DNA from: Balneolaceae bacterium
GTDB lineage: Bacteria > Bacteroidota > Rhodothermia > Balneolales > Balneolaceae
DNA: 44,497 nt
Direction of reading: 5' to 3'
Assembly: GCA_007131725.1 (NCBI GenBank)
Contig: SLPZ01000042.1
Location: forward strand, 1 to 44,497
Shown one piece after another: positions 6,384 to 43,136 of this stretch; within the stretch, counting starts at the first letter, position 1, and the number at the start of each line of letters is the position of its first letter. The notes below the pieces were generated by a model. It was given only the letters and a program-made list of their open reading frames with translations. It ran no database searches and was not told where the DNA came from. A program made the translations under genes and the position numbers.

Positions 6384-6908
6384 TTATCCTTCGAATACCT
6401 TTTTAACACTCACACCCCTGCGCTGAGCCACCTCAACAGGATCGGTTAATTCCTTTAAAGCCTGGTAAGCTGCCTTCACCATGTTATGCGGATTAGACGA
6501 TCCCAGCGACTTTGATAAAATATTTTGGATACCGGCAACGTCTAATATAGCCTTAACCGCACCACCGGCAATTACCCCGGTACCTTCGGCGGCCGGCTTT
6601 AACAACACTTTTCCGGCTCCGGCTTTTCCAACAACCGGGTGATGAATACTTCCGGTTGAAGTGACCGGTATTTTTATCAGGTTTTTCTTGGCGTTATCAA
6701 AGCCTTTCTGGATTGCATCCGATACTTCATTCGCCTTGCCTAATCCATGGCCAACAACACCTTCACCGTTGCCTACAACTACAATAGCATTAAAACTGAA
6801 CCGGCGTCCGCCTTTTACTACTTTGGCTACCCGGTTTATATGAACCAGTTTTTCTTCGAGGTTTAAGTTTGCTGCTGGAATGTTATGTTTTCTTCTGATT
6901 TTTGGCAT
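6384..6908 (-). CDS. rpsE: 30S ribosomal protein S5
   Basis: [37 protein letters not shown]. Confidence 0.98.
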
Positions 6909-6920
6909 GATTCAATAATA

Positions 6921-7289
6921 TTATAAGTCCAGGCCGCCTTCTCGTGCTCCATCGGCAGCGGCTTTTACAATTCCATGGTATTTATATCCACTTCGGTCGA
7001 AAACCACCTTTTTGATTTCCTTATCTGTTGCTGACTCAGCCAGTGCTTTTCCGATAATTTCCGCAGCTTCGAGCGGGGCTTTATCTTTCAATTCTTTCTG
7101 CAGGTCTGCTGATTTGGTAGAGACAGACATAATGGTCAGGTTGTCAAGGTCATTTATCAACTGCAGATAAACATGCTTATTGCTTTTGTATATTGCCATA
7201 CGCGGCCTTTCTGCAGTTCCGCGAATTGTGGAACGAATTCTTCGCCTTATTTTATTTCTTCGCTGCTTCTTTAAATCGGTTTTTCTCAT
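6921..7289 (-). CDS. rplR: 50S ribosomal protein L18
   Basis: Family motifs (AERPRMAIYKSNKHVYLQLIND; FDRSGYKYHGIVKAAADGAREGGL). Confidence 0.97.
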   Translation of the reverse strand: MRKTDLKKQRRNKIRRRIRSTIRGTAERPRMAIYKSNKHVYLQLINDLDNLTIMSVSTKSADLQKELKDKAPLEAAEIIGKALAESATDKEIKKVVFDRSGYKYHGIVKAAADGAREGGLDL

Positions 7290-7307
7290 TTTCTTAAATC
7301 TTAAAGA

Positions 7308-7862
7308 TTATTTAGCTGCAGATTTTCCGGCTTTTCTTCTGATCTGTTCACCGAGATACCGGATTCCTTTTCCTTTGTAAGGTTCAGGTTTTCTCAATGA
7401 CCGGATCTTTGCCGCCACCTGGCCTACCAGTTCCTTGTTAATTCCGGATATAGATACCACCGGATTTTTTCTTGATTTTGTATCCACTTCAATTTCAATG
7501 CCATCCGGCGGCACAAAATATATTGGATGAGAATAACCAAGGCTCAGTTCAAGTACACCATTCGTAAATGTAGCCCGGTAACCAACTCCGATAATTTCAA
7601 GTTGTTTTTTATATCCTTTGGATACGCCCTCAACCATATTATTCAGCAAAGACCGGTAGAGGCCGTGCAAAGATTTATGCTCTTTTGAGTCGCCTGAGCG
7701 GGTTACAACGATTTCACCTTCTTTCATCTCAACAGAGATGTCTGGATGAATCCGAAGCGATCCGGTTCCTTTTTCACCTTTTATCGTTACAACATTATCA
7801 GCGCCAATGTTAAACTCAACATTGTCAGTTAATGGAACGGGTTGTTTGCCTATTCTCGACAT
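7308..7862 (-). CDS. rplF: 50S ribosomal protein L6
   Basis: MSRIGKQPV...PEPYKGKGIRYLGEQIRRKAGKSA. Confidence 0.98.
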   Translation of the reverse strand: MSRIGKQPVPLTDNVEFNIGADNVVTIKGEKGTGSLRIHPDISVEMKEGEIVVTRSGDSKEHKSLHGLYRSLLNNMVEGVSKGYKKQLEIIGVGYRATFTNGVLELSLGYSHPIYFVPPDGIEIEVDTKSRKNPVVSISGINKELVGQVAAKIRSLRKPEPYKGKGIRYLGEQIRRKAGKSAAK

Positions 7863-39303: not shown

Positions 39304-40560
39304 ATGTACCGATTTCACATTTACCTTCTTCCATTGTTGTTGATATTGTTCATATCAGGATGCGATCTGTTCAGCTCTGCGGGCGGAACAGATAAAACCG
39401 AACGGGAGCTGCCCCGCGAATTCTCCGCACAGGAAAAACTGGTTGCAGAAGCGTCCAACGATTTTTCTTTCCGCCTACTCAATTTGCTTCATGAAAAAGA
39501 GGGAAACCAGCCATTTTTCGTTTCACCCCTCAGCATTTCCACCGCATTTGCAATGGCACTGAACGGTGCAGACGGTGATACCTACGAGCAGATGCGCGAC
39601 TTTTTTGGCTACTCCGGCATGACCAACGAAGAGATCAACCGGGCGTATCGCGATCTGATTGAACTGCTGACCACACTCGATCCGAAAGTAGTGATGAACA
39701 TCGCCAACTCGATATGGGTAAGAGAAGATTTTCAGGTACTCGAGGATTTCCTGGAACGAAACAGAACTTATTTCGATGCCGAGGTATCACGGCTCGATTT
39801 CAGCAAGCCCGAAGCGCCCGACATCATCAACGCCTGGATTGAGCAAAAGACGAAAGGGCTGATTGAAGAGATGATTAATGAGATCGACCCACTTGTGGTG
39901 ATGTACCTGATTAACGCCATCTATTTTAACGGAGACTGGACTGTACAGTTTGATCCGGATGAGACTGAAGACCGCCGGTTTTACCGGGATGACGACACCA
40001 CCATAGAAGTACCCACGATGACCGGCCGCCACGAATTCCGTTATTATCTGGGAGATGACTGGACGGCGCTGGATATGTGGTACGGCGATGCCGGTTTTTC
40101 GTTCACAGCTTTGATGCCGGCTGAAGACGCCGCTCTGCAAGAGCTGATCCCGGATTTAACGATAGCACGCTTTCAATCCATCACCAGCCGGCTTGAGCAG
40201 GATACCATCAATGTTTTCATGCCAAAGTTTGAGCTGGATTATGAGATTGACGATTTTCCTTTCGACCTGATGGAAATGGGTTTAACGCTTCCTTTTGATT
40301 CGTTTGAAGCAGATTTTTCCAGGATTACCGATATCCAGCAAATTTATATTTCTGATGTGATGCACCGTGCGGTTATCAAGCTGGATGAGGAGGGAAGTGA
40401 AGCGGCTGCAGTTACCGTCATCGAATTCAGAGAACTCAGTGCCGGAGGCGGTGGCAAACATTATCTGACCATCCGCCTCGACCGGCCGTTCCTCTTCTTT
40501 ATCCGGGAAAACAGCTCCAATACCATTTTGTTTATGGGAGCTTATACGGGTTTTGAGTGA
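39304..40560 (+). CDS. Serpin family protein, predicted lipoprotein
   Basis: Lipobox LLLILFISGCDLF; NDFSFRLLNLLHEKEGNQPFFVSPLSISTAFAMALNGA; hinge EEGSEAAAVTVIEF; RPFLFFIRENSSNTILFMG. Confidence 0.93.
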   Translation: MYRFHIYLLPLLLILFISGCDLFSSAGGTDKTERELPREFSAQEKLVAEASNDFSFRLLNLLHEKEGNQPFFVSPLSISTAFAMALNGADGDTYEQMRDFFGYSGMTNEEINRAYRDLIELLTTLDPKVVMNIANSIWVREDFQVLEDFLERNRTYFDAEVSRLDFSKPEAPDIINAWIEQKTKGLIEEMINEIDPLVVMYLINAIYFNGDWTVQFDPDETEDRRFYRDDDTTIEVPTMTGRHEFRYYLGDDWTALDMWYGDAGFSFTALMPAEDAALQELIPDLTIARFQSITSRLEQDTINVFMPKFELDYEIDDFPFDLMEMGLTLPFDSFEADFSRITDIQQIYISDVMHRAVIKLDEEGSEAAAVTVIEFRELSAGGGGKHYLTIRLDRPFLFFIRENSSNTILFMGAYTGFE

Positions 40561-40752: not shown

Positions 40753-40904
40753 GTTCCATCTCCTGTTTCAACAAAAAATTTTGCACTATCAAAGTTTAAT
40801 TTCGATCATAAAACTCTTTTCACGCACAACAAAATTAATGAAGCAAATTTCGTAAATAAGACAAGTCCGTCTATGCGTACCAAAAAACCATGTTTCTTAA
40901 AATT

Positions 40905-40936
40905 TGTGGATAACTCTGTGGGAAAGTTGTGGATAA
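40905..40936 (-). promoter_or_regulatory. DnaA-box array, copy A (2 perfect TTATCCACA plus 1 degenerate)
   Basis: TGTGGATAA at 40905-40913 and 40928-40936, TGTGGGAAA at 40917-40925; reverse complement of consensus DnaA box TTATCCACA. Confidence 0.65.
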
Positions 40937-40952
40937 ATCAGCGATTTTTTTA

Positions 40953-40982
40953 TTGACAACCATTTGGAATTTGTATTAATTA
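40953..40982 (+). promoter_or_regulatory. Promoter-like element, copy A
   Basis: TTGACA (40953-40958) - 18 nt - TAATTA (40977-40982). Confidence 0.6.
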
Positions 40983-41000
40983 CAAGTGAGTACAGTCGTC

Positions 41001-41078
41001 ATGAATGCTACGGCAGAATTGATGAAGAGCTGGAAATCCGCAGCTTATTTGTTCAATGATTCCTACAAGATGAACTGA
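41001..41078 (+). CDS. Candidate 25-aa microprotein / structured sRNA, copy A
   Basis: MNATAELMKSWKSAAYLFNDSYKMN*; frame, start and stop kept in all three copies. Confidence 0.5.
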   Translation: MNATAELMKSWKSAAYLFNDSYKMN

Positions 41079-41084
41079 ATGAAT

Positions 41085-41103
41085 GTACTCCGGTACTTTT
41101 TTT
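41085..41103 (+). terminator. Intrinsic terminator-like hairpin, copy A
   Basis: GTAC-TCCG-GTAC followed by T7; c(UNCG)g loop. Confidence 0.6.
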
Positions 41104-41191
41104 ATGTCCGCCTGTTTTGTCCGATCTGCTTCAATTAAACTCCTTTTCTGATTACCAGCATTCTCTTAAAGCCACCATTCTTTAGTCGAAT

Positions 41192-41533
41192 CTACGGAGC
41201 AAACATTTCTAGCAACACCTTGAGTACTTTCTCTTCGGCTGAACTGCTTATTGTACCAAGTTTTTTTATCAAACGGCTTTTATCTACTGTACGAATTTGA
41301 TCTAAAACAATCTGCCCTTTTTTTCCTTGAAATGTAGTGGTGACCCGCGTTGGATAATTTTTGATTGTAGAAGTCATCGGCGCGATAATTACGGTTCTGA
41401 TATACTTATTCATTTCATCAGGAGAAATGATTAAACAGGGACGTGTTTTCTTAATTTCAGACCCTTTTGTCGGATCAAGCGAAATCTGATGAACTTCAAA
41501 CCTTCGGACCTGCTTACTTTCTACCATGTCCAC
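41192..41533 (-). CDS. Type II toxin-antitoxin system PemK/MazF family toxin
   Basis: RRFEVHQISLDPTKGSEIKKTRPCLIISPDEMNKYIRTVIIAPMTSTIKNYPTRV...KKGQIVLDQIRTVDKSRLIKKLG. Confidence 0.93.
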   Translation of the reverse strand: MDMVESKQVRRFEVHQISLDPTKGSEIKKTRPCLIISPDEMNKYIRTVIIAPMTSTIKNYPTRVTTTFQGKKGQIVLDQIRTVDKSRLIKKLGTISSSAEEKVLKVLLEMFAP

Positions 41534-41808
41534 TCAGCTTCATCCCACGCGGATGGTTTTTCAATTTCTTTTTGATCTAATAAGGCATCATCACCTTGTT
41601 CTGCCATCTTTTCGAAAGACGCCTCCCAATCTTTTCGGGCAGTTTCGGCAGACCGAAGGACAATTTCATTATCTCTGAGAATCATCTCAATTTCTTCGGT
41701 TAATCCACTTTCCTCAATCAGGGGTTTTGGAATTCGTACCCCCTGGGAGTTTCCAATACGAATTAATTTAGTTTTCATGGCTTCGGCGTTGTTTGAAATG
41801 ATACTCAA
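41521..41808 (-). CDS. AbrB/MazE family antitoxin
   Basis: MKTKLIRIGNSQGVRIPKPLIEESGL SpoVT-AbrB motif; overlaps toxin start. True start is likely the Met before KTKLIRIGNSQG. Confidence 0.9.
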   Translation of the reverse strand: MSIISNNAEAMKTKLIRIGNSQGVRIPKPLIEESGLTEEIEMILRDNEIVLRSAETARKDWEASFEKMAEQGDDALLDQKEIEKPSAWDEAEWTW

Positions 41809-42042
41809 ATATAATTACAATGTACTTACAGTCCAACGAAAGGTGTAAAGTTTTATTGAACCACTTAACTTATTTCGAACTCACGTTAATTTGCAGAGTC
41901 CCCTAAACATATATTTGAGGCCTCTTGAAATCTGTTCAGATCAAAAAAAATCAGTCTCCACGCACAACAAATTTGAATGGATAAATTTTATGGAATGTAC
42001 AAATCCACCAATAGGCTTCAGAAAGCGGTATTTCTCAAAATT

Positions 42043-42085
42043 TGTGGATAATTCTGTGCAAAAGTTGTGGGAAAGTTGTGGATAA
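42043..42085 (-). promoter_or_regulatory. DnaA-box array, copy B (2 perfect plus 2 degenerate)
   Basis: TGTGGATAA 42043-42051 and 42077-42085; TGTGCAAAA 42055-42063; TGTGGGAAA 42066-42074. Confidence 0.65.
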
Positions 42086-42101
42086 GTCAGTGATTTTTTT
42101 A

Positions 42102-42131
42102 TTGACAACCATTTGGAAATTGTGCTTATTA
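42102..42131 (+). promoter_or_regulatory. Promoter-like element, copy B
   Basis: TTGACA (42102-42107) - 18 nt - TTATTA (42126-42131). Confidence 0.6.
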
Positions 42132-42149
42132 TAACTGAGTACAGTCGTC

Positions 42150-42227
42150 ATGAATGCTACGGCAGGATTGATGAAAAGCTGGAAATCCGCAGCTTATTTA
42201 TTCGATGAATCCCACAAGATGAACTGA
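42150..42227 (+). CDS. Candidate 25-aa microprotein / structured sRNA, copy B
   Basis: MNATAGLMKSWKSAAYLFDESHKMN*. Confidence 0.5.
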   Translation: MNATAGLMKSWKSAAYLFDESHKMN

Positions 42228-42233
42228 ATGAAT

Positions 42234-42252
42234 GTACTCCGGTACTTTTTTT
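42234..42252 (+). terminator. Intrinsic terminator-like hairpin, copy B
   Basis: GTAC-TCCG-GTAC-T7. Confidence 0.6.
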
Positions 42253-42699
42253 ATACTCGCCTGTTTTTTTAGTCCTGCCGCTTCTAATCTCCTTTACTGA
42301 TTAGCCTTCGTAATTAAAGTCTTATGCCTGGTTTAACGGGCCTTGTAAACTAAGATAACAGCAACAGCTATCTCAGTAAACTGTGTTAATATTAATAGTC
42401 AACCCCAATGCTGAAAATGAAAGCTCGTTTTATTGCCACGGATTTACAGAACGTCACAGAATATTCCGTGCATTTCTGTGTTTCAGTGGCAATATTTCAA
42501 TATCTCTTGTGGGGGGCTTTCCTTTTCTTCAGAATTATCAACCCACAAGAATTTCTGTATAACCACAAATAGTTTAGTGCCTCTTGATATCTGGTCAGGT
42601 CAAAAAATCAGCCTCCGCGCACAGCAAAATTGAAGGTTCAAATTATATGGAAAAGACAAATCCCTTAATATGCCCCACAGTGCGTGATTCTTCAAAAAT

Positions 42700-42742
42700 T
42701 GTGGATAACTATGTGTAAAAGTTGTGGGAAAGTTGTGGATAA
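42700..42742 (-). promoter_or_regulatory. DnaA-box array, copy C (2 perfect plus 2 degenerate)
   Basis: TGTGGATAA 42700-42708 and 42734-42742; TGTGTAAAA 42712-42720; TGTGGGAAA 42723-42731. Confidence 0.65.
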
Positions 42743-42758
42743 ATCGATGATTTTTTTA

Positions 42759-42788
42759 TTGACAACCATTTGGAATTTGTGCTAATTA
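42759..42788 (+). promoter_or_regulatory. Promoter-like element, copy C
   Basis: TTGACA (42759-42764) - 18 nt - TAATTA (42783-42788). Confidence 0.6.
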
Positions 42789-42806
42789 CAAGTGAGTACA
42801 GTTGTC

Positions 42807-42884
42807 ATGAATGCTACGGCAGGATTGATGAAAAGCTGGAAATCCGCAGCTTATTTGTTCAATGATTCCTACAAGATGAAATGA
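42807..42884 (+). CDS. Candidate 25-aa microprotein / structured sRNA, copy C
   Basis: MNATAGLMKSWKSAAYLFNDSYKMK*. Confidence 0.5.
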   Translation: MNATAGLMKSWKSAAYLFNDSYKMK

Positions 42885-42890
42885 GCAAAT

Positions 42891-42909
42891 GTACTCCGGT
42901 ACTTTTTTT
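42891..42909 (+). terminator. Intrinsic terminator-like hairpin, copy C
   Basis: GTAC-TCCG-GTAC-T7. Confidence 0.6.
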
Positions 42910-43136
42910 ATGCCCGCCTGTTTTTGTTTGTTATAAAATTCTTTAATTCTAACCAAGATAACCATCTTTTATTTCTCAACTTAACCTCGCGTCCCGGTCA
43001 TGCAGGTTCAGATATTTTACCACTCGTGAACCATTTCTGTTTTAAAAAAATCGCAGGATAATTTTATGAACAGCGGAATGGACAAAAGTTACAAACAGTT
43101 CTTACGGATAATTGTTAATTACTCGTTTTAAAACTC

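Follow-up and report, generated by a model that had tools for sequence, protein, structure and literature searches.

The window, the whole 44,497-nt stretch of Balneolaceae DNA analysed here, contains three repeat units (copies A, B and C), all on the + strand, with their parts at or near the positions first assigned to them (Table 1). Each unit comprises, in order along that strand, an array of DnaA boxes, the T-tract GATTTTTTTA, a TTGACA hexamer, a -10-like element rich in A and T, and a stretch of 116 bp that runs from GAGTACAG to a T7 run. The boxes within each array all have one orientation. Among the three copies, identity is 61-76% in the DNA 5' of the boxes, 88-93% across the boxes and the promoter, and 92-95% in the transcribed part, and this rise marks the core as the conserved part. 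A preliminary description of this DNA had proposed that the core, from boxes to terminator, is under selection and that every copy has the appearance of a complete transcription unit. Both proposals are borne out. The exact spacing claimed for the parts holds less strictly: an array is present in every copy, but that of copy A is one box short, a difference of 11 bp. A serpin gene and a toxin-antitoxin pair lie beside the units; serpins are unusual protease inhibitors in bacteria.

Table 1. Parts of the three repeat units and neighbouring genes in the window
Feature	Position	Strand	Details
Serpin gene	39304-40560	+	Pfam Serpin, 342.6 bits; directly 5' of copy A
DnaA-box array, copy A, 3 boxes	40905-40936	+	TGTGGATAA 40905-40913, TGTGGGAAA 40917-40925, TGTGGATAA 40928-40936; gaps 3, 2 bp
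T-tract and putative promoter, copy A	40943-40987	+	GATTTTTTTA at 40943, TTGACA 40953-40958, TTAATTA 40976-40982; fixed distance to RNA kept in relatives
Predicted structured non-coding RNA, copy A (P1-P4, pseudoknot, U run)	40988-41103	+	Covariance model 121.6 bits; covariation
MazE/PemK(MazF)-type toxin-antitoxin pair	41192-41808	-	Between copies A and B
DnaA-box array, copy B, 4 boxes	42043-42085	+	Starts 42043, 42055, 42066, 42077; gaps 3, 2, 2 bp
T-tract and putative promoter, copy B	42092-42136	+	GATTTTTTTA at 42092, TTGACA 42102-42107, GCTTATTA 42124-42131
Predicted structured non-coding RNA, copy B	42137-42252	+	Covariance model 126.5 bits
DnaA-box array, copy C, 4 boxes	42700-42742	+	Starts 42700, 42712, 42723, 42734; gaps 3, 2, 2 bp
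T-tract and putative promoter, copy C	42749-42793	+	GATTTTTTTA at 42749, TTGACA 42759-42764, GCTAATTA 42781-42788
Predicted structured non-coding RNA, copy C	42794-42909	+	Covariance model 125.8 bits

Fold and covariation of the RNA

Relatives of the unit, collected by DNA search and then with a covariance model, bring the number of copies to 71. These divide into 42 with a DnaA-box array (class 1, including the window copies), 27 that are clearly boxless (class 2) and two that are cut by contig ends; the counts do not derive from a strict automatic label (two boxes, each with at most one mismatch), which undercounts class 1. The common fold spans ~105 nt and consists of a terminal helix (P1), the arms P2, P3 and P4, and a pseudoknot. 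P2 is interrupted by an internal loop and carries a small hairpin capped by a nearly constant cUACGg loop. P1 occurs as GAGUAC/GUACUC, GAACAC/GUGUUC, GGAUAC/GUAUCC and other variants. In the pseudoknot, the CGG immediately after P1 has as its partner the CCG on the 3' side of the P3 loop. This pairing covaries, CCG/CGG being replaced by CUUG/CAAG in L098:6840 and by CCU/AGG in L114 and L116, and its outer pair is A-U in 15 copies, G-C in 14 and U-A in 13, which makes 42 copies with one of these three pairs.

A plain MAFFT alignment of 29 sequences has 91.6% of its pair cells paired, compared with 38-45% when the partners are slid, and compensatory (two-sided) change is seen in 25 of the 33 pairs. 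The alignment of all 71 copies, which was fitted to the covariance model and is thus biased towards structure, gives 91.4% against 33-44% in slid controls, with compensatory change in 34 of 36 pairs. Double-changed cells number 617 in the 71 copies versus 190 +/- 16 in shuffles. The case for structure is made by covariation and not by energy, since single-sequence folding energy only mildly beats shuffles (z about -1 to -2.6). Neither the window nor the RNA of the relatives scores above the gathering cut-off of any Rfam 15 family; the TPP-riboswitch matches near class 2 copies lie 3' of the RNA, outside the RNA itself. The RNA family is new relative to Rfam 15, in agreement with the earlier remark that no named family could be recognised.

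The 3' end of the transcript is probably set by the fold itself. In 38 of the 42 class 1 copies, P1 is followed at a distance of 5-8 nt by a run of six or more T (6 nt in 27, 7 nt in 9). Since the bases in between belong to the pseudoknot, P1 and the pseudoknot would abut the U run directly, and the P1 helix with the pseudoknot set against the U run may end the transcript. The simple hairpin GUAC-UCCG-GUAC was rejected as a general terminator, as it is present in the window type and lost in other class 1 groups. At the window units, a standard terminator scan calls no terminator and a standard sigma-70 (E. coli-type) scan calls no promoter; promoters and terminators are proposed here because they are conserved at fixed positions, not from the E. 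coli consensus.

Promoter classes and DnaA boxes

Class 1 promoters carry 3-5 same-facing DnaA boxes, the last of which lies 16-17 bp 5' of the -35 element (35 of the 39 copies measured); the -35 element itself starts 35-38 bp 5' of the RNA. Boxes of the TTWTNCACA type occur 5' of the promoter in 42 of 42 copies, and the earlier view of a promoter organised around DnaA boxes holds. Box 1 is TTATCCACA, or TTATNCACA with N being C in 38, T in three and A in one of the 42 copies and with two other single deviations; all 42 were found with a search expression that required TGTG, which in part predetermines that those four bases appear invariant. When boxes with up to three mismatches are included, 98 of the 99 gaps between successive boxes measure 2 bp (56) or 3 bp (42), matching the preference of E. 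coli DnaA for pairs of boxes spaced 2 or 3 bp apart (PMC11317965). Some copies (L080, L084, L094) have an extra, inverted perfect box.

Pattern searches of 20 genomes locate the tight array 13 times, always at this RNA, with 0 occurrences for the reversed control. It is found at dnaA in none of the 20, and the reading of the array as oriC or as part of the dnaA locus was rejected. Where a class 1 copy and dnaA share a contig, 66 kb to 1.28 Mb separate them. The dnaA gene itself is present in all 20 genomes, with the usual, conserved DNA-binding helix (GGRDHSTV) and with TTATCCACA boxes in its own upstream region. A pattern for the promoter only, run against 84,980 species (GTDB collection), matched 8 stretches, all from Balneolaceae. 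Judged from this sequence evidence, class 1 genes are likely to be under DnaA control. The effect of DnaA is probably activating rather than repressing, because the boxes end at a fixed distance 5' of the -35 element and leave the promoter uncovered.

The second class differs in its promoter and in what follows the RNA. In a tree built from the RNA only, 28 of the 29 copies outside class 1 (the two copies cut by contig ends being labelled class 2) form one clade without class 1 members (support 0.82), a grouping that agrees with the promoter classes. Many class 2 promoters contain CYTACA-N17-CYTACA direct repeats, a putative activator site. These repeats have a 23-bp period and lie 77-120 bp 5' of the RNA, as in L105:6436-6464(+), L104:1292-1320(+) and L112:6649-6677(-). 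Most class 2 RNAs are followed on the same strand by a homologue of the TPP riboswitch, seen in 19 of 20 sources at 33.5-67.1 bits (gathering score 54.3), and four additional class 2 aptamers exceed the gathering score. Examples are L138:1375-1474(-), L136:1373-1475(-), L202:326-421(-), L203:339-432(-), L117:6327-6427(+) and L104:1586-1688(+), among others; some aptamers, such as those of L118 and L120, look degenerate. The window copies, which are class 1, have no TPP aptamer. In several class 2 loci that were inspected, a terminator-like hairpin then follows. The gene beyond the class 2 RNA usually runs convergently. No thiamine gene occurs among the class 2 neighbours examined, which encode a P-type ATPase, a universal stress protein, Hsp20, flavodoxin, a PEP-utilising enzyme, citrate synthase and a DsrE-like protein. 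Class 2 RNAs and their aptamers apparently form non-coding transcripts, and the comparison of the classes suggests that one RNA module answers different physiological inputs in the two.

Tandem repeats with a period of 11-12 bp just 5' of the -35 element are typical of OmpR/PhoB-type regulators. A real RNA could accordingly be driven by another activator, for example a response regulator of this type, whose 11-bp direct repeats merely resemble DnaA boxes. The period of the class 1 array fits such regulators too, and class 2 bears unrelated repeats, CYTACA-N17-CYTACA, at a similar place. However, box 1 is the full 9-bp TTATNCACA and varies almost solely at a position that DnaA tolerates, the 2- and 3-bp gaps fit the known preference of DnaA, the extra boxes of L080, L084 and L094 are inverted yet perfect, and the same 9-mer lies 5' of dnaA itself, which together make another activator an unlikely owner of these sites.

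DnaA could also be bound at the array for a reason other than transcription. Clusters of several boxes outside oriC act as sinks or reactivating sites for DnaA in E. coli and B. subtilis, and the array could chiefly be such a site (comparable to datA, DARS or the B. subtilis clusters), with the transcript mattering only as transcription through or near it. The presence of 1-5 copies per genome would suit this role. However, the array stands at a fixed distance from a promoter and is joined to an RNA with a fold that covariation preserves, while class 2 retains the RNA without boxes, and a site that serves chiefly as a sink is improbable.

Distribution, neighbourhood and product of the gene

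Among the genomes searched, the RNA family has so far been found solely in Balneolaceae, including Rhodohalobacter sulfatireducens, which has three copies, two of class 1 and one of class 2. The first model matched 47 of 128 genomes of the order and the second 27 of 395 genomes drawn from the phylum, in both cases all of family f1; when 40 family members that the first model had not matched were searched more loosely, one genome was added beyond the phylum draw. The hosts are marine and salt-loving bacteria of one family. The source MAG (3.84 Mb, 331 contigs) contains five copies, the three of the window and two on contig C16, with no others at E<=0.001, and copy number ranges from 1 to 5 per genome. 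The position of copies near contig ends suggests that draft assemblies undercount them. Many Balneolaceae genomes are without a detectable copy, and the RNA is therefore not essential.

The genes 3' of the RNA are often convergent in both classes, and gene neighbourhoods are common within clades, across species, and different between clades. Given these convergent genes and clade-shared neighbourhoods, the RNA gene most likely stands alone and is inherited mainly vertically. A compact, aptamer-like fold with a pseudoknot close to a U run would also be expected of a cis-acting riboswitch leader that regulates the next gene, and a true TPP-aptamer homologue is found 3' of class 2 RNAs. However, in class 1 and class 2 alike the gene that follows often lies on the opposite strand, and class 1 has no conserved co-directional downstream gene, so that a leader of this kind is very unlikely.

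A mobile-element repeat (MITE/REP-like) or a plasmid or phage remnant is less credible again. Several near-identical copies per genome, often at the contig ends of draft genomes, would fit such an origin. The preliminary description had itself weighed the case of a simple repeat, present at hundreds of random sites and decaying uniformly; what is found instead is five copies here and 1-5 per relative, in neighbourhoods conserved within clades across species, with uneven conservation that peaks at the promoter and the RNA. The plasmid and phage collections searched gave no match to the unit, and an origin from either was rejected.

The 25-codon ORF, on which the idea of a small gene had been based, fares differently from the rest of the unit. 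Its 78-nt frame is indeed open and free of indels in the three window copies, but these are the only three of the 71 in which the frame at this start is open. It stops at codon 11 in both C16 copies of the same genome, and many relatives are missing a start codon at this position. Indels sit in RNA loops, and substitutions preserve pairs, through compensatory change, but not codons. The peptide reading is thus rejected, the frame being unconserved among the 71 copies, and the conserved product is almost certainly a folded non-coding RNA. A family of 25-codon small-protein genes under DnaA control, analogous to sda, has next to no remaining probability, as the intact frame of the window copies is missing from most relatives.

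A proposed DnaA-controlled RNA and its precedents

The reading that we prefer, to which we assign a probability of about 0.7, is a structured RNA that stands alone, probably acts in trans and has class 1 genes under the control of ATP-DnaA, which probably activates them. Each unit would be its own gene for a structured non-coding RNA of ~105-116 nt, with a cooperative DnaA-binding array just 5' of the promoter. An oligomer of ATP-DnaA would probably nucleate on the perfect TTATCCACA box, extend over the weaker boxes towards the promoter and raise transcription of the compact RNA ending at the U run. The RNA may then act in trans, via a protein, a small molecule or base-pairing, and might, as a guess, tune growth or metabolism to the replication state; tandem copies would increase its dosage. 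The role of a trans-acting regulator is somewhat better than an even bet. The compact fold, rich in invariant positions, speaks for a protein or a ligand as binding partner rather than for simple antisense pairing. Pairing with the leader of dnaA is not supported, as the duplex energies predicted for the RNA and this leader are not consistently better than those of shuffled sequences. The RNA family can do without DnaA control, because class 2 is without boxes.

A broader reading, held tentatively and at slightly less than even odds, joins the two classes. It describes a replication-coupled riboregulator, in which a pseudoknotted four-way-junction RNA would be set directly by ATP-DnaA, while a sister class with another promoter, among genes for stress and redox functions, is joined to a TPP aptamer without a thiamine gene. 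Replication state and cofactor level would both lead to a common RNA output.

By analogy, the closest functional precedent appears to be the sda promoter of Bacillus subtilis. Like the present unit, sda is small, stands alone as a gene and has a promoter region with several DnaA boxes; DnaA acts there as a transcription factor, and its ATP form is preferred (PMC4447404, PMC8203912). DnaA activates sda, and ATP-DnaA recovers ~50-fold more of the promoter DNA than ADP-DnaA at 55 nM (PMC4447404). However, sda has a protein product, whereas the Balneolaceae unit is multicopy and specifies a structured RNA, and its control by DnaA is deduced from sequence. The double boxes of E. coli DnaA, such as those 5' of purH, are likewise same-facing and 2-3 bp apart, with one perfect and one weak box (PMC11317965); the Balneolaceae arrays differ in having 3-5 boxes, a fixed geometry and dedication to a single RNA family. 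Sinorhizobium EcpR1 and the B. subtilis antisense RNA to dnaA are also small RNAs tied to replication or the cell cycle (PMC4414408, PMC12112137). Those RNAs are described as acting on dnaA or the cell cycle; in Balneolaceae it is DnaA that would act on the RNA. The TPP riboswitch (RF00059) resembles the class 2 paralogues in that these have a homologue of its aptamer in the same transcript direction, but no thiamine gene is seen 3' of them and the class 1 copies of the window are without the aptamer.

Protein genes switched by DnaA are known. The open-licence papers searched yielded no non-coding RNA under its control, which is weak evidence of absence, and a review of the transcriptional role of DnaA mentions no small RNA (PMC8203912). 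A dedicated non-coding output of DnaA, if true, would be a new route from the replication state to the rest of the cell. The array, with its fixed gaps of 3 and then 2 bp in 42 copies, also provides a clean, naturally replicated test of the rules of cooperative DnaA binding. Class 2 is strange in a separate way, with a TPP aptamer within a seemingly non-coding transcript. A third promoter type may be represented in L091, where three tandem RNA copies (6403-6519, 6799-6928 and 7211-7329, all +) follow one another at a spacing of ~400 bp and have no DnaA boxes, no CYTACA pair and no TPP aptamer; the P2 hairpin of the middle copy contains an expanded GGTACTAT repeat.
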